In this document: piece by piece, positions 17,817 through 27,411 of the stretch
Layout: every line of letters begins with the position of its first letter
How positions within the stretch are numbered: position 1 is the first letter of the stretch
DNA from: a bacterium
GTDB taxonomy: Bacteria; Zixibacteria; MSB-5A5; GN15; FEB-12
Assembly: GCA_029211095.1 (NCBI GenBank)
Contig: JARGFS010000006.1
Coordinates: forward strand, 1 to 44,683
Direction: 5' to 3'
DNA: 44,683 nucleotides
Made by a program: the position numbers and the translations under genes
Notes under the pieces: model-generated
The model's database searches: none
Told to the model about the DNA's origin: nothing
What the model saw: only the letters and a program-made list of their open reading frames with translations

Positions 17817-19121
17817 TTATTGATAGATGGCTCCAAACAGCAAACCGGAGATAGTTGCCATAACTATGACCAGCAGGATAAATACAATAGTCTTTTTTGT
17901 TCCCATCACCGATCTAATCACCAACATATTTGGCAACGAGAGAGCCGGTCCGGCCAACAGTAAAGCGAGCGCCGGTCCCTGTCCCATACCATTGCCGAGC
18001 AGACCGAGCAGTATTGGAATCTCAGTCAGCGTTGCGAAGTACATAAAGGCCCCGACCACGGCAGCAAAGAGATTGGCTCCCAGCCCATTGCCGCCGACCG
18101 CATTGGTAATCCAGTGTGGAGGGATCAGCCCCCGCTGTTCCACGCTTCCCAGCAGAAGTCCCGCAACTATAATACCGGCCAGCAACAGTGGCAGGATCTG
18201 CTTGGCAAAGCCAAATGACTGTGAAAACCATTCTCCGGCATCATCTTTGCGAACGCCGGTTACAATGGCCAGCCCAACAAAAGCGACTACAAACGGGATA
18301 ATCGGCTGGCTGTCAAAGATCAGGCTGGCACCAATAACGGCAGCGGTGGCAAGAGCCAAATGCCACCGGGGGATGGAAAACCAGAGCCAGAGCATAAGGG
18401 CGAGCAAGAAACCAAGCAGCGAAGTCAAATACCATTTGGCCGAATACAACTGATACCAGAGACCTGTGCTCTCTTGCGGACTCCCCAGGTTGGCGAATAC
18501 CAGTATCCCTACCATCGAGCCAAGCAGAAGTCCGTTTTTGGTCGCCGACACTTTCACCTCTTCATCCGGTGTCGCCATTTTAGCTGCGTTCCGCTTTTGC
18601 TCTTCAGAGCGAAACAATAGCGCCATTATCAAACCAATGACAATACTAAAGAGCACCGCCCCGACTGCCCGAGCGACCCCGATTTCCACGCCCAGGACCC
18701 GAGCGGTCAGAATAATCGCCATAATGTTGATCGCCGGTCCGGCATAGAGGAAGGCCGAAGCTGGCCCCAGGCCGGCCCCCATCCGGTATATCCCGGCAAA
18801 GAGCGGAATGATGGTACAGGAGCAGACGGCCAGAATGGAACCGGAGGTAGAGGCTACCCCGTATGAGATGAACTTGTTTGACTCTGCACCAAGATACTTG
18901 AGGACGATCCCCTGGCGAATAAAGACCGCGATTGCTCCGGCAATAAAAAAGGCCGGGACCAGGCAGAGGATAACATGCTCGCGGGCGTACCATTTGGCCA
19001 ACCGGAGAGCTTCGAATAACGGACCGGAAAAGGAAAGCTGATCCAGTGGGAAATAGTAGAATAGACCAAATACAGCTACCATCGCTGTCAATGATTTCCA
19101 GGTCCGGTTAAAAAGGTTCAT
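17817..19121 (-). CDS. arsP: ArsP-like permease (DUF318 family)
   Basis: 434-residue membrane protein with about ten helices. Hallmark SILAVCSCTIIPLFAGIYRM holds the CxC pair of the permease family, followed by GPAINIMAIILTARV and a second repeat with ATLTEIPILLGLLG and GPALSLPNMLVI. Family members export trivalent organoarsenicals (ArsP); others serve unknown substrates. AGGTGA precedes the ATG at 19121. The gene follows arsR by 15 nt. Confidence 0.8.
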   Translation of the reverse strand: MNLFNRTWKSLTAMVAVFGLFYYFPLDQLSFSGPLFEALRLAKWYAREHVILCLVPAFFIAGAIAVFIRQGIVLKYLGAESNKFISYGVASTSGSILAVCSCTIIPLFAGIYRMGAGLGPASAFLYAGPAINIMAIILTARVLGVEIGVARAVGAVLFSIVIGLIMALLFRSEEQKRNAAKMATPDEEVKVSATKNGLLLGSMVGILVFANLGSPQESTGLWYQLYSAKWYLTSLLGFLLALMLWLWFSIPRWHLALATAAVIGASLIFDSQPIIPFVVAFVGLAIVTGVRKDDAGEWFSQSFGFAKQILPLLLAGIIVAGLLLGSVEQRGLIPPHWITNAVGGNGLGANLFAAVVGAFMYFATLTEIPILLGLLGNGMGQGPALALLLAGPALSLPNMLVIRSVMGTKKTIVFILLVIVMATISGLLFGAIYQ

Positions 19122-19136
19122 GCTGTCACCTGGAAG

Positions 19137-19493
19137 CTAACCATCACGCCCAATCCGGATTTGCTGCAGCGGTTCTGCTTTGCAATTAGACTCCAACACA
19201 GACTCCACGCAGCCAAAGAAATCCATTACACAGGGGACTTTCAATCGATACCAGACCTGCAGCCCCCGCCGGTTGTCTTCCACAATCCCCACCTCTTTCA
19301 AGCGGGAAAGATGTTTTGAGACGGTCGAAATATCATCACCAACCAGATCAGTCAGTTCTCGCACGCAGGACTCTCCCCGGGACAGCCTGTCAACCAGAAG
19401 CAGCCGGGTCGGGTGGGCCATCGCCTTGATGATTTTGGCTCTGGCTTTGTAGCGAGCGGTTTGGCTCTCTTTTGTTTCGCTGTTCTTACACAT
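19137..19493 (-). CDS. arsR: ArsR family transcriptional repressor
   Basis: 118-residue winged-helix repressor and first gene of the ars operon. Recognition helix DISTVSKHLSRL at about 54-65; wing DNRRGLQVWYRL. Cys residues lie at 2, 43, 88, 95 and 104. The usual CVC metal site is reduced to SCVRELT, with only Cys43, and a C-terminal trio (88, 95, 104) is present, so the arsenic site is atypical for the classical type and may bind organoarsenicals. The ATG at 19493 follows an operator and a -10 element by 11 nt. An upstream frame extension has no family match. Confidence 0.88.
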   Translation of the reverse strand: MCKNSETKESQTARYKARAKIIKAMAHPTRLLLVDRLSRGESCVRELTDLVGDDISTVSKHLSRLKEVGIVEDNRRGLQVWYRLKVPCVMDFFGCVESVLESNCKAEPLQQIRIGRDG

Positions 19494-19497
19494 AACT

Positions 19498-19532
19498 ATT
19501 TGGCAATATAGCCAAATAGGGGATGGAGTCAA
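19498..19532 (-). promoter_or_regulatory. arsR promoter with nested operator
   Basis: Minus-strand TTGACT (19532-19527), 16-nt spacer, TATATT (19510-19505). The -10 hexamer is the exact centre of the inverted repeat ATTTGGC-6-GCCAAAT (19498-19517), so ArsR binding would cover it. Expected start of transcription is 19497-19499, leaving a leader of about 5 nt. Confidence 0.7.
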
Positions 19533-19620
19533 TACTCTTGGAAGCAATAATTGCGATGAAGAGAGAGTGGGTTGAAAGTCCGTGGGATTCGGATCGTTGG
19601 AGTAAGCGAGCTTAATAGGC

Positions 19621-19700
19621 AAAAAAAACCCAAGCAGGTCAAACCTGCCTGGGCGGACGATATTAGGTAATCCACAGAAAGAGTAACACTTTCCGATTGC
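19621..19700 (-). ncRNA. Candidate small RNA upstream of arsR
   Basis: On the minus strand a TTGACA-16-TATCTT promoter is followed about 80 nt later by an 11-bp stem with one mismatch (CCCAGGCAGGT / ACCTGCTTGGG, loop 3 nt) and eight T, a strong terminator. No ORF lies between. A short RNA of about 80 nt is predicted. It could alternatively be a leader that ends before arsR, but arsR has its own promoter downstream. Confidence 0.5.
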
Positions 19701-20096: not shown

Positions 20097-22499
20097 ATGA
20101 AACTAAAACATCATTCAGAGTCAATTACTATCGCTTCACGCCTGCCGGTTCTTCCCCTTCGGGATGTGGTCGTCTTTCCTTACATGATCTACCCCTTGCT
20201 GATCGGACGCGAGAAGACTATGAATGCTTTGCAGGAAGCAATGATAAGAGATAAGCAGGTGCTGCTGGTTGCGCAGAAACAGGCCGGGATGGATAATCCT
20301 TCGGCCAACGACCTGTACGAAATTGGTATCGTGGCCCGCGTTCTTCAAGTCATGAAGATGCCGAACGGCACGCTCAAAGTGCTTGTTGAAGGCTTGGTCC
20401 GCGCCCAGGTCAAGAAGATGACCCGCTCTCGTAATTTTCTTTCGGCTTCGCTGGAAATTGTCTCCCCCGGCCCCGTCAAGGCTGACAAAGAGCTCGAAGC
20501 TATGTCACGCACGGTCGCCGAGAGCTTCGCCGAATATGTGCGACTTAATCGAAGAGTCCCGGATGAGATTCTCGTCTCACTGGCTTCAATAGAAGACTAC
20601 CAGCAGCGGGCAGATTCTATCTCCGCTCACCTGCTGCAGAATATTGAGGCCAAGCAGAAAGTTCTGGAAGCCCCGACTATTAAAAAGCAGTTTAAGATTC
20701 TGGCCGAAATACTGAAGAGCGAGATTGAGATACTGAAGATTGAGCAGAAGATTGATGGCTCGGTGCGGGAATCAATGTCCCGGAGCCAGCGAGAGTTCTA
20801 TCTTCAGCAGCAGCTAAAAGCAATCAAGGATGAGTTGGGACAGTACGATGAACCGGCGGCCGAAGTCGAGGATCTCTATTCCAAATTAGAAAACCATGAT
20901 TTCCCGGAGCAGGTCAGAGCCAAAGCGGAAGAAGAGATTCGGAAGCTGTCCAAGATGCATCCGTATTCAGCTGAGTCCGGGGTGGTCAGAAGTTACCTGG
21001 AGTGGATTCTCAACCTGCCGTGGGACACTCATACGGACGACCGTACAAATTTCAAGGAAGTACGCGCCATTCTGGATGGAGACCACTATGGCCTGGAGAA
21101 ACCTAAGCAGCGCATTCTTGAACATCTGGCCGTGATTCGGCTGGCCGGAAAAGTGAAGGGGCCCATTCTCTGTCTGGTGGGACCTCCCGGAGTAGGGAAA
21201 ACTTCGGTAGGAAGATCAATCGCCCGCTCTTTGGATCGTGAATTTGTCCGGATGTCTTTGGGTGGAGTGCATGACGAGGCCGAAGTTCGCGGTCATCGCC
21301 GCACCTATATTGGAGCCATGCCGGGACGAATAATTCAGGCCTTGAAAAAGGCCGGTTCGTCCAACCCGGTCTTTCTTTTTGATGAGATTGATAAGGTAGG
21401 TAAGGACTTCCGGGGCGACCCATCTTCGGCCCTGCTGGAAGTGCTGGACCCGGAGCAGAACAATACTTTTGCAGATAATTATCTCGAAGTTGAATATGAT
21501 CTTTCGGACATTCTATTTATTACCACCGCCAACAGCACGGCCAGTATTCCCCCGCCGTTGCGCGACCGGATGGAGATAATTCGTCTGCCCGGCTATCTTG
21601 ATTTTGAAAAAGTGCGCATTGCCAGAAGTTTCCTCATTCCAAAACTGCTCAAAGAGATTGGACTGGACAAAGTCGAAGTCGATTTCAAGGATGAGGCCCT
21701 CTTTGAGATAATAGGGCATTACACCCGTGAGGCCGGAGTGCGCGAACTGGAACGTCAGTTGAGCGCCATCCTCCGCAAGTCGGCTGTGAGTCTGGCCGAA
21801 GGGAAACGGGTTCGTAAGATCAGTTTTGGAAGAGCCAAGGTAAACAGACTTCTTGGCGCTCCCAAGTATGTAGGAACCAACATCAAGACCAAACCTACCG
21901 TGGGTTACGCCGTTGGACTGGCCTGGACCGAAGTAGGCGGCGATGTTCTCCCGGTCGAAGTTGTCCCGATGACCGGCAAAGCGAGGTTGACGCTGACCGG
22001 TTCTCTGGGGGATGTAATGCGAGAGTCAGCTACGGCCGCCCTCTCATTTATTCGGAAGCATGCCGAGCTGTTTGGCCTCAAGGATGATTTCTTTGAAACG
22101 CTTGATCTGCATATTCATATTCCGGAAGGGGCGGTTCCGAAAGAAGGTCCCTCAGCCGGTGTGACCCTGATCACCGCCGTTCTGTCCTCTTTGACTGCTA
22201 CCGAAGTCAGGACGGACATTGCTATGACCGGTGAGATCACTCTCACTGGCGATGTCCTTCCGGTAGGTGGTCTCAATGAGAAACTACTGGCGGCCAAGCG
22301 TCAGAAAATCGTTCGTCTGGTTGTGCCCGAAAAGAACCGGAAGGATATCGAAGAGCTTCAGGCAGACCTTCTTGAAGGACTGGAGATCAACTACGTCAAG
22401 ACAATCTTTGATGTCCTGAAACTAACCCTGGTCTCCATGCCGGGTGGAACTAACCGTCGGATGAAAGGGAGTTCCGGACGGATGGCTCGCAACAGTTAA
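20097..22499 (+). CDS. lon: ATP-dependent Lon protease
   Basis: 800-residue cytoplasmic protease for damaged and regulatory proteins. N-terminal substrate domain (from LPVLPLRDVVVFPYMIYPL), coiled-coil middle (QREFYLQQQLKAIKDELGQ), AAA+ module with Walker A GPPGVGKT at about 362 and FLFDEIDKVG, then the protease domain with the Ser-Lys dyad: Ser686 in PKEGPSAG and Lys729 in GGLNEKLLAAKR. Length is standard. GAGCGGA lies before the ATG. It begins a run of lon-engB-purA-FKBP, the lon-engB order being common in proteobacteria. A long, structured upstream region may regulate it. Confidence 0.97.
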   Translation: MKLKHHSESITIASRLPVLPLRDVVVFPYMIYPLLIGREKTMNALQEAMIRDKQVLLVAQKQAGMDNPSANDLYEIGIVARVLQVMKMPNGTLKVLVEGLVRAQVKKMTRSRNFLSASLEIVSPGPVKADKELEAMSRTVAESFAEYVRLNRRVPDEILVSLASIEDYQQRADSISAHLLQNIEAKQKVLEAPTIKKQFKILAEILKSEIEILKIEQKIDGSVRESMSRSQREFYLQQQLKAIKDELGQYDEPAAEVEDLYSKLENHDFPEQVRAKAEEEIRKLSKMHPYSAESGVVRSYLEWILNLPWDTHTDDRTNFKEVRAILDGDHYGLEKPKQRILEHLAVIRLAGKVKGPILCLVGPPGVGKTSVGRSIARSLDREFVRMSLGGVHDEAEVRGHRRTYIGAMPGRIIQALKKAGSSNPVFLFDEIDKVGKDFRGDPSSALLEVLDPEQNNTFADNYLEVEYDLSDILFITTANSTASIPPPLRDRMEIIRLPGYLDFEKVRIARSFLIPKLLKEIGLDKVEVDFKDEALFEIIGHYTREAGVRELERQLSAILRKSAVSLAEGKRVRKISFGRAKVNRLLGAPKYVGTNIKTKPTVGYAVGLAWTEVGGDVLPVEVVPMTGKARLTLTGSLGDVMRESATAALSFIRKHAELFGLKDDFFETLDLHIHIPEGAVPKEGPSAGVTLITAVLSSLTATEVRTDIAMTGEITLTGDVLPVGGLNEKLLAAKRQKIVRLVVPEKNRKDIEELQADLLEGLEINYVKTIFDVLKLTLVSMPGGTNRRMKGSSGRMARNS

Positions 22500-22532
22500 A
22501 GGTTAGATATTATTCTTGCAAGACATCACAGC

Positions 22533-22546
22533 GAGGTGCGACCATC
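22533..22546 (+). promoter_or_regulatory. Ribosome site and AUC start of engB
   Basis: GAGGTG at 22533-22538 is followed after 5 nt by ATC at 22544. No ATG, GTG or TTG occurs in this frame between a stop at 22451 and a TTG at 22673 that lies inside the P-loop domain. Confidence 0.6.
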
Positions 22547-23125
22547 GCAAAGATAACTTCGTGCGAGTTCATTGGATCATTCTTTCAACTCGATCAATTA
22601 CCCCGGGACCGTCGGGTACAGATCGCCCTGGCCGGCCGTTCCAATGTCGGGAAGTCTTCGCTCCTCAACAAATTGGTCGGGCGCAAGAAGATGGCCAAAG
22701 TTTCCACCACGCCGGGGAAAACGAGATCACTGAACTTCTTTATAGTAAACGAAAAATTCTACCTGGTAGACCTTCCCGGATACGGTTATGCAAAAGTATC
22801 TCGTTCCATTCGGGAGAGCTGGGGGAAGATGATCGAAGATTACCTCAATCAGTCATCAGATCTGATTGGGCTTTTCCTGTTGCTGGATTGTCGGCGCGAA
22901 CCAACCGCAGAGGATGTCCAATTGCTGGAGTGGCTGGCCGAACGGCAGATTCCCACTCTGGTAGTCATTACCAAAGCGGACAAACTCAGCCGGGACAAAA
23001 TAAACAGAAAGAGGCAGCAGGTAGAGAAGGCTCTGGGTGTGGCGACGATAGCTTTTTCCACTCTCTCCGGAGAGGGGAAAGCAGAACTGGTCAGCTCGGT
23101 CCTTCAATTGGTAGAAGACAATTAG
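22544..23125 (+). CDS. engB: Ribosome-biogenesis GTPase EngB (YihA/YsxC)
   Basis: 193-residue P-loop GTPase needed for large-subunit ribosome assembly. G1 is GRSNVGKSS, G2 region STTPGKTRSLNFF, G3 LVDLPGYGYAKVS, G4 ITKADKL, G5 FSTLSGEGK. The start is inferred at ATC (22544): it gives (M)AKITSCEFIGSFF, aligns with the known N terminus of B. subtilis YsxC (MKVTKSE...) and has a well-placed GAGGTG. Starting at TTG 22673 would delete the P-loop and leave 150 residues. It follows lon by 44 nt and precedes purA by 21. A sequencing error in ATG is the alternative. Confidence 0.88.
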   Translation: MAKITSCEFIGSFFQLDQLPRDRRVQIALAGRSNVGKSSLLNKLVGRKKMAKVSTTPGKTRSLNFFIVNEKFYLVDLPGYGYAKVSRSIRESWGKMIEDYLNQSSDLIGLFLLLDCRREPTAEDVQLLEWLAERQIPTLVVITKADKLSRDKINRKRQQVEKALGVATIAFSTLSGEGKAELVSSVLQLVEDN

Positions 23126-23146
23126 TAAACTGTTAAGGCATAGATT

Positions 23147-24421
23147 ATGAAAAGAAACGTTGCAGTATTAGGCTGTCAGTGGGGAGACGAGGGAAAAGGG
23201 AAGATTGTAGACCTGCTTGCCGCGGAGGCAGATATTATCGCCCGTTCTCAGGGAGGGGCCAATGCCGGGCACACGATTATTGTCGGGGATACCAAGTATG
23301 TCCTGCACCTGATTCCATCCGGAATAATTCATCCCGGCAAAATTTGCTATATCGGAAACGGGGTTGTAATTGATCCTTTTGGCCTGAAAGAGGAACTTGA
23401 TTTCCTGGCTGAGAAAGGGATAGACTATACCGGCCGCCTCTTTGTCTCCGCCGCGGCCAACCTGGTTCTGCCCTATCACAAACTAATAGATGCGGTGGAA
23501 GAGAGAAATCGGGGGACGGAATCAATCGGGACAACCATGCGCGGTATTGGTCCGGCCTATGTCGATAAAGTGGCCCGTAACGGGATACGGGTCGCCGACC
23601 TGTTTGCCCCGGATAGACTTCGCAACCGCCTTGAATACCAGTTGAAGATTAAGTCGGTTTATCTTGCCGGTTCCGATGATGAGCGGGCCAATATCAATCT
23701 TACTTTTGAAAAACTTCAGGAGTTAGTTCCGCTGTTTAAGGAACTGGCTCGGGATGTTTCGTTGGAATTGACTCGCGCGATCAAGAATGGAAAGTCGATT
23801 CTGTTTGAAGGAGCGCAGGGAACTATGTTGGACGTTGACCTCGGCACCTATCCTTACGCGACTTCATCAAATACTACTGTTGGTGGGGTGCTCACCGGTT
23901 TGGGTCTGGGTCCCAAAGCGATTGAAGAGGTAGTCGGGGTTGTCAAAGCGTACACCACGCGAGTGGGTGCGGGTCCTTTTCCAACTGAACTGGTTGACCG
24001 GACCGGGGAGAAACTTCGGGATATCGGGGATGAATTCGGCGCCACCACCGGCCGCCCCCGACGTTGCGGTTGGCTGGACCTGGTCGCCTTGAGACATGCA
24101 GTCAGAATCAACGGAGTTGATTCTATCGCGGTTACAAAACTTGATGTACTGGACAGTTTCAGCGAGATCAAGATATGTACCGGATATTCGCTCAACGGGG
24201 AGGATCTGAGCGAAGTACCGCTTGATCTGGCGGAACTATGCCATGTCAAGCCGGTATACACCAGTATGGACGGTTGGAACAGCGACACTACCGGCATAAC
24301 CAAATTTGATGATCTTTCGGAAAACGCCCGGGATTATCTGCGTTATATTGCAGATGATCTGGAAGTTAAGATCAGAATTGTGTCCACCGGGGCCAAGAGA
24401 CAAGAAACAATATTAGTCTAA
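23147..24421 (+). CDS. purA: Adenylosuccinate synthase
   Basis: 424-residue enzyme joining IMP and aspartate with GTP, the first committed step to AMP. The N terminus has LGCQWGDEGKGKIVDLL (GTP loop, catalytic Asp14) and NAGHTI (catalytic His). The middle holds ESIGTTMRGIGPAYVDK and FEGAQGTMLDVDLGTYP; the C-terminal part has TTGRPRRCGWLDLVALRHA and ITKLDVLD-like GTP specificity. Length is standard. Same direction as engB, 21 nt after it. Confidence 0.97.
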   Translation: MKRNVAVLGCQWGDEGKGKIVDLLAAEADIIARSQGGANAGHTIIVGDTKYVLHLIPSGIIHPGKICYIGNGVVIDPFGLKEELDFLAEKGIDYTGRLFVSAAANLVLPYHKLIDAVEERNRGTESIGTTMRGIGPAYVDKVARNGIRVADLFAPDRLRNRLEYQLKIKSVYLAGSDDERANINLTFEKLQELVPLFKELARDVSLELTRAIKNGKSILFEGAQGTMLDVDLGTYPYATSSNTTVGGVLTGLGLGPKAIEEVVGVVKAYTTRVGAGPFPTELVDRTGEKLRDIGDEFGATTGRPRRCGWLDLVALRHAVRINGVDSIAVTKLDVLDSFSEIKICTGYSLNGEDLSEVPLDLAELCHVKPVYTSMDGWNSDTTGITKFDDLSENARDYLRYIADDLEVKIRIVSTGAKRQETILV

Positions 24422-26320: not shown

Positions 26321-26358
26321 ACTATTTAGAAAGAGTTTGAACTAAGGTGGTAGTCAAC

Positions 26359-27411
26359 TTGAAGACTCTCTTGATCGTCCAGATACTTTTGTTTGTTGTC
26401 ATGGTTCCGGCCGCCAATGGATTCCATCGGGATGGTGTTGCTCAGTGCGGAAGCTGTCATGTCATGCACAATCAGGAGGGTGGTGTAGTGATGTTACCGG
26501 GGGGCTCGCCGCAGTTACTCAACGATGCCAGTGCCAGTGGTGTCTGTCTTTCCTGTCATGGAGAACAATTCGGGGCAGTCTTGGGAATTGATCCCCTGGT
26601 ACCCCCGCCAGAATTCGGCGGCGGGAAATTTGTGTTTCTATTTGAGGATAATATCAATGATGGTCCCGCCGGCGCTGACAACCCAATAGGTGGATACGCC
26701 TCAGGTCACAGCATTATTGAGCCCTCGGTTGGACTTTCAGAAGATCCTGTTAACATGAGAGCTCCGGGCGGTACTTTCAGGTCCAACAAACTCTCCTGTG
26801 CCAGCTGCCATGACCCGCACGGAAATCAGAACTTCCAGATGCTGTATGGTGTCGGGCATATCAAGTCTTCAAATTACAATTTCAACTACCCCGCTCCTAT
26901 CGCCCAGAGTATTGACATCGCCAGTCGCCGAAGTGAGACTCAGGACAACCATACCGCCTATATTTCCGGGATGAGCGAATGGTGCGCTAATTGTCATGGC
27001 TTCTATCATGATCTGGTTGGGCGCGAAAGTCTGGAGCATGAGTTTAACCTTACTTTTGAGGAGTCTCAGATCTCTCGTTACAACAGCTACAGTGGGATTC
27101 AGAATCCCGATGGCGGAGACCCGGCCACATCGTACATTGTCGAAGTCCCTTTTGAAGATGCCAGTGCCACTATTAACAAAACCAGCGGTCCTACATCAAC
27201 CAGCAGAGTAATGTGCCTGACCTGCCACCGGGCCCACGGGAGCTCTTCGGTGGCCGCCGGTCGGTGGGATTTCCGAGTGACCTCTCTTGACTATGACGGA
27301 GTTGAATCCGGTTCCTACCCCATTCCGAGCCCTTACAACGGTCCCAACGAGCCGCCGCTTTGCAGCAAGTGCCATTCCACCGTGCCTTCTGCGCCAGCCA
27401 CTCAGGAGTGA
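26359..27411 (+). CDS. Multiheme (six CXXCH) c-type cytochrome
   Basis: About 350 residues, exported (signal LLIVQILLFVVMVPAANG). Six heme motifs in order: CGSCH, CLSCH, CASCH, CANCH, CLTCH and CSKCH. The pairs CASCHDPHG and CLTCHRAHG match the doubled-CXXCH pattern of periplasmic or surface electron carriers. Probable role is electron transfer in the envelope; partners are not visible. The TTG at 26359 is chosen because AAGGTGG lies 8 nt upstream; a GTG at 26347 gives four more residues without a better ribosome site. Single-gene unit. Confidence 0.88.
   Translation: MKTLLIVQILLFVVMVPAANGFHRDGVAQCGSCHVMHNQEGGVVMLPGGSPQLLNDASASGVCLSCHGEQFGAVLGIDPLVPPPEFGGGKFVFLFEDNINDGPAGADNPIGGYASGHSIIEPSVGLSEDPVNMRAPGGTFRSNKLSCASCHDPHGNQNFQMLYGVGHIKSSNYNFNYPAPIAQSIDIASRRSETQDNHTAYISGMSEWCANCHGFYHDLVGRESLEHEFNLTFEESQISRYNSYSGIQNPDGGDPATSYIVEVPFEDASATINKTSGPTSTSRVMCLTCHRAHGSSSVAAGRWDFRVTSLDYDGVESGSYPIPSPYNGPNEPPLCSKCHSTVPSAPATQE

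Follow-up and report, generated by a model that had tools for sequence, protein, structure and literature searches.

We found that the engB gene (ysxC/yihA) in a 44,683-nucleotide stretch of bacterial DNA, hereafter the window, begins, as far as can be read from its sequence, at an AUC codon, and that this codon belongs to a recurrent AUH (AUA, AUC or AUU) start of engB within the family of the window's genome. The AUC start had been proposed by a first-pass annotation made from the letters of the window; our analysis confirms this observation, which is very unlikely to be an error. The best reading of the data would make engB a further gene in the small set with AUH starts, with a weak start resembling that of infC. 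Here, ATG, GTG and TTG are termed canonical codons, G000 denotes the window's genome, and codon positions are given relative to the GRSN motif, with the ATC of the window at -30 (Table 1).

Table 1. Features of the engB locus in the window
Feature	Coordinates	Strand	Remarks
lon (ATP-dependent protease)	20097..22499	+	Lon_C, LON_substr_bdg and AAA matches; directly upstream of engB
Shine-Dalgarno-like GAGGTG	22533..22538	+	identical in G001
engB ATC start codon	22544..22546	+	sole workable in-frame start; AUH at homologous place in relatives
engB (ysxC/yihA), ribosome biogenesis GTPase, 193 aa	22544..23125	+	TIGR03598, PDB, Pfam MMR_HSR1
purA (adenylosuccinate synthetase), next gene	23147..24421	+	normal ATG at 23147

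The lon gene ends with TAA at 22497-22499, and the reading frame of engB runs from its last upstream stop (TAA 22451-22453) to its own stop at 23123-23125. As the first-pass annotation had stated, the first in-frame canonical codon after 22451 is the TTG at 22673, a start downstream of the P-loop GRSNVGKSS that would remove it from the protein. Its two further statements on the start also hold, namely that the ATC stands behind GAGGTG at start spacing (a spacer of 5 nt) and that the N terminus aligns with that of YsxC: residue 3 of the query pairs with residue 2 of Bacillus subtilis YsxC, which puts the ATC one codon before YsxC Met1. Translated from the ATC, the product reaches 222.1 bits with TIGR03598, where the curated cut-off for EngB is 124.45, and matches solved EngB/YsxC structures in PDB (e.g. 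1sul, E 2e-45). The P-loop GRSNVGKS, DLPGYG and TKxD, in one G domain, are invariant columns in an alignment of 19 sequences that includes the window. Three sequence marks of an infC-like AUH start are present: the AUH codon is the sole usable in-frame start, it has a Shine-Dalgarno sequence at start spacing, and it is kept in relatives with a varying third base, in part of the family alone.

In a standard list of open reading frames, the sole engB entry in frame is a 150-aa fragment without the P-loop, because the first canonical codon, TTG 22673, follows this motif. A 206-aa open reading frame starting at TTG in another frame (22516-23136) covers engB, and an automatic caller may prefer it, or an engB cut to start at 22673. 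Annotation restricted to ATG, GTG and TTG would thus remove the P-loop of EngB or call a wrong-frame open reading frame in such genomes.

The search for relatives covered 61 genomes and then the 54 genomes of the window's family, 48 of which hold engB at E <= 1e-30 (one locus each; the other six are without such a match). Under a strict definition, 10 of these 48 genes qualify: from the in-frame stop upstream to the conserved block at the N terminus they contain no canonical codon, and at -30 or -31 they carry AUA, AUC or AUU. These strict cases (G000, G001, G019, G025, G027, G029, G032, G062, G068 and G076) come from seven genera. G023 is a borderline eleventh, which combines AUU at -30 and GAGGT with a GTG (position -23) that borders on the conserved block. 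More broadly, a canonical codon at -36 to -26 is absent from 21 of the 48 genes and present in 27, so that the AUH start is not universal in the family. An AUH codon lies at -32 to -30 in 19 of the 21 genes without such a canonical codon, versus 7 of the 27 genes with one (Fisher p value = 8e-6; genus-collapsed 12/1 versus 6/7, p value = 0.03), the range -36 to -26 having been chosen post hoc, after the data had been seen. From the frequency of AUH inside the gene, about 11% would be expected. The AUH site exceeds chance, since G001, of the window's genus, has ATA behind the same site and since 19 of 21 stands against this expectation. Neither an AUH codon at -32 to -30 nor a near canonical codon was found in G018 and G026.

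When the first AUH of every gene is taken, the 19 AUH genes comprise 8 ATA, 6 ATC and 5 ATT. In eight of them an ATG or GTG also occurs in frame at -38 to -50, mostly at or just after the lon stop, and for this reason the use of AUH in these eight is probable and not certain. The third base differs within AUH between near pairs: G000 (ATC) and G001 (ATA), G029 and G077 (both ATA) and G076 (ATT), and G028 (ATC at -31) and G063 (ATT at -32). A tree was built by a quick method from EngB together with the C-terminal part of Lon (62 rows; support is poor at 22 of 59 inner branches). On it the AUH label has to change 5 times, at least 3 changes being forced by the starred branches.

Many of the AUH sites in the family have a Shine-Dalgarno sequence at start spacing. 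The three g12 genomes are without a convincing one, and the strict case G027 shows no match of 4 bases or more. The 16S 3' end ...GGATCACCTCC was present in three of the six family genomes tried (G009, G027 and G029) and was not found in the other three (G000, G001 and G012). Taken together, the family data suggest that a weak start of engB may be kept on purpose, as it is for IF3.

Control genes served to place this start within the habits of the genomes. The infC gene starts at AUA (31 loci) or AUC (5 loci) behind a Shine-Dalgarno match in all 36 scored loci, which span four families; of the 37 loci given, one was without an anchor and was not scored. At six of the 36 scored loci, a TTG or GTG occurs as well between -25 and -1 (five at -1 and one at -19). 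In the window's own genome (locus L047, contig G000:C186), infC starts at ATC behind AGGAGG, which bears out the analogy with infC drawn in the first-pass annotation; infC of a same-genus relative (L059) has ATC also.

The remaining controls start normally. For purA, 38 of the 39 family loci that hold the gene have ATG; at the remaining one (L011, G005) the ATG is shifted by one base against the reading frame of the gene, which is probably an assembly error in that draft genome. Canonical codons were found within the expected range in all scored loci of der (27/27; of 30 loci, 3 matched the second GTPase domain and were left out), obg (30/30; range -15 to +2 of the profile start, by match coordinates) and rpsB (27/27; of 30 loci, 3 were without an anchor), these counts giving the presence of a canonical codon in range and not which codon is used. 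An apparent ATT start of der at L217 was discarded, the anchor there having matched the second GTPase domain. These four genes rule out a general tolerance of odd starts in these genomes.

We also scanned 400 kb of G029, one of the strict cases, where 3 of 214 gene models have an AUH codon with a Shine-Dalgarno sequence before every canonical codon. In these three, the first canonical codon follows 3, 6 and, in engB, 16 codons on, and engB is alone in having it more than 6 codons on. With looser coding filters the counts rose to 4 of 232 and 5 of 337 through models whose coding scores are negative, and when the first canonical codon had to be 10 or more codons away, 1 of 213 was left, which is engB. 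The scan under-detects such starts, because it missed infC. As far as tested, the odd start is specific to the gene and not a habit of the genome, since the control genes start normally and the scan singles out engB. The AUC start proposed for the window is strongly backed by these normal starts and by AUA, AUC or AUU at the same or a neighbouring codon in relatives.

Outside the family, engB mostly has a canonical codon in range. In three other families of the order, all 22 genes counted have a canonical codon in range (17 ATG and 5 GTG); of the 24 order-level genomes, G047, with no engB match of note, and G041, with a match in two pieces, were left out. Among named bacteria, nearly all of other phyla, the best 80 of 593 confirmed loci were taken, and 78 of them carry a canonical codon at -45 to -20. 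Furthermore, a DNA pattern search across 132 genomes of the phylum matched 14 of the 54 family genomes and 2 of the 78 others. Inspected by eye, both hits outside the family show an ATG within a few bases downstream of the AUH. Because the pattern uses GRAG, it misses G000 and other GAGGTG sites, also elsewhere.

At L116 (Gemmatimonadetes, VGVM01000008.1), engB has an ATC at -33 behind AAGGAGG with no ATG, GTG or TTG in range, and CTG and GTC stand near the place where the Gemmatimonadota-named loci L068 and L109 have GTG at -29; it is possibly an independent AUH start of engB in another phylum. L072, a Candidatus Zixiibacteriota contig among the 80 named loci, probably belongs to the window's phylum, a tentative assignment made from one protein: its EngB shares 64-66% identity with members of f4, another family of the window's order, and the one f4 member compared has 61-78% EngB identity to its nearest others. 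Our searches of open-licence literature gave no description of engB starting at AUH; a study of bacterial genes that prefer non-AUG starts (arXiv 2008.10758) might list engB.

Collectively, we consider it likely that the AUC of engB, positioned by GAGGTG, is part of the recurrent AUH start of the family, that it gives a low yield compared with lon and purA, and that it is sensitive to IF3, as is infC. Comparison of the genomes establishes the position of the putative start, its Shine-Dalgarno sequence, its conservation and, within the controls, its gene specificity. We infer that lon, engB and purA share a single transcript on which the AUC would hold EngB well below its neighbours and, from the codon type alone, that the start would respond to IF3. 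The initiator tRNA would pair with only two bases of an AUH codon, which would make initiation inefficient, and starts of this type would be rejected by IF3. Inefficient initiation would in turn set the EngB protein made per mRNA much below the protein made from lon and purA, the flanking genes on the transcript presumed to be shared, and, as with infC, a higher ratio of IF3 to free 30S subunits would lower the yield. The further idea of the first-pass annotation, that the AUC serves to hold expression low, is plausible. In Staphylococcus aureus, AUA and AUU starts give about 10% of the AUG reporter output in poor medium, and the ccpN start gives up to 30% of AUG output in rich medium (PMC13009471).

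A plain set point, to which we give somewhat less than an even chance, shares the AUC start and the low yield with this explanation and differs from it in the IF3 step: the AUC would lower EngB from the lon-engB-purA mRNA to a suitable ratio without regulation by IF3, and lineages would reach the same low output variously, by AUH with a Shine-Dalgarno sequence, by TTG, by GTG or by ATG with a poor Shine-Dalgarno sequence. Consistent with this, only 9 of the 48 family genes have ATG at -36 to -27, and 18 have TTG or GTG there without ATG, versus ATG at these positions in 17 of the 22 genes outside the family in the order and in 72 of the 80 named bacteria. Moreover, the ATG starts at -35 in G006, G011, G017, G033 and G035 are without a Shine-Dalgarno match of 4 or more. 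However, AUH is the very codon class that IF3 rejects, the same genomes use it for infC, and the genes labelled AUH fall into several clades of the tree. An unregulated low set point fits the data nearly as well as a start regulated by IF3, since other family members favour TTG and GTG over ATG.

A homeostat, in which engB would be a second start-codon target of IF3 and would share with infC a switch that reads the ratio of IF3 to 30S, is attractive as a feedback on 50S assembly, and we regard it as unlikely. When 50S assembly lags, unpaired 30S subunits would accumulate and bind IF3, discrimination against AUH would relax and more EngB would be made; once 50S catches up, IF3 would be freed and engB shut down again. 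Relaxed discrimination would raise EngB and so close a loop, because a shortage of EngB leaves free 30S able to hold IF3. IF3 at high level discriminates against its own AUU start (PMC9410913). YsxC is reported to bind and mature the 50S subunit in S. aureus and B. subtilis; when it is depleted, 70S ribosomes become fewer while subunits increase, and in B. subtilis an immature large subunit is left (PMC2811118). With AUH kept at a ribosome-assembly GTPase in several genera of one family, a link of ribosome assembly to the level of IF3 becomes testable.

Next, RNA structure offers another way to limit engB. Within 22481-22546, pairing is possible between the end of lon and GTGCGACCATC across the engB start. 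Such a hairpin could mask the start as long as it is not opened by a ribosome that translates lon, and the AUC would matter only together with this masking. The duplex between the lon end and the start region stands out in G000 (z -2.2) and G001 (z -1.5), although the single-strand fold is unremarkable (z -0.92), none of the other 17 AUH genomes tested reaches z -1.5, and the pairing strand is lon coding sequence, conserved anyway. With a notable duplex in 2 of 19 genomes tested, we rejected masking as a general mechanism, and the reading as a whole is improbable.

The junction with lon suggests still another start. The lon gene is directly upstream of engB in 47 of the 48 family loci, the 48th (G072) having only 194 bases upstream. 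In 17 of the 47, an ATG, GTG or TTG in the engB frame overlaps the lon stop (as in G009, G011, G012, G018, G020, G024, G026, G033 and G036), and in 32 of the 47 the relative frame of the lon stop is the same. From these two counts, engB of some relatives probably has its start at the lon stop and would carry some 20 additional residues, and in G026 the codon at the lon stop is the sole candidate upstream of the conserved block. EngB could be N-extended from a start overlapping the lon stop (ATGA or TGATG), by coupling or re-initiation, with the AUH at -31 as an internal Ile. The window, however, has no canonical codon there, which refutes such an extension at the sequence level; in-frame stops upstream of the AUH rule it out in G001, G023, G025, G027, G032, G062, G068 and G076, and many AUH sites have a Shine-Dalgarno sequence at start spacing. 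As an account of the AUH codons the extended start is thus very improbable, and in some relatives, for instance G009, G012, G024, G028, G034, G063 and G067, it would be a real option.

Hardly credible is an assembly or base-call error, with a true ATG or a small indel that hides a normal start: the window comes from a draft genome of 241 contigs, but in the same-genus G001 an ATA occupies this very site behind the same GAGGTGCGACC, which makes a sequencing error unlikely, the sequence is conserved on both sides of the start (GAGGTGCGACCAT.GCAAAGATAAC being identical in the two genomes save for the third base of the start codon, ATC versus ATA), and eight further strict cases come from other genomes. 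The ATG base call or nearby frameshift at 22544 that the first-pass annotation had considered is likewise unlikely, because independent genomes show the same arrangement.

Very few genes of bacteria are known to start at AUH, and infC is the one generally taken to be regulated by IF3. The infC gene, whose AUU, AUA or AUC start is autoregulated by its product IF3, resembles engB in having an AUH codon with a Shine-Dalgarno sequence, in a third base that is free within H, in belonging to the translation machinery and in starting at ATC in the window's own genome. The two differ in extent, infC having AUH in every scored locus whereas AUH in engB was seen in part of one family only (plus the candidate L116), and in circuitry, since engB encodes a 50S-assembly GTPase and its regulation would not be direct self-feedback. 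In Escherichia coli, translation of pcnB is reportedly limited by its AUU start; this is again a gene other than infC with an AUU start, of another identity and function. The ccpN (AUA) and cvfC1 (AUU) genes of S. aureus also have conserved non-canonical starts with strong Shine-Dalgarno sequences (PMC13009471); they encode regulatory or small proteins of Firmicutes and their starts were shown by ribosome profiling, whereas the engB start is known from sequence. The Bacillus-named loci L091, L108 and L117 have engB ATG at -29, unlike the window, with which B. subtilis nevertheless presumably shares the gene order, lonA being directly upstream of ysxC.

Elsewhere in the window, the minus strand at 17817-19622 encodes a putative membrane permease beside a small regulator that is ArsR-like by eye, and the product of 26347-27411, in which several CxxCH motifs occur, looks by eye like a multihaem cytochrome.
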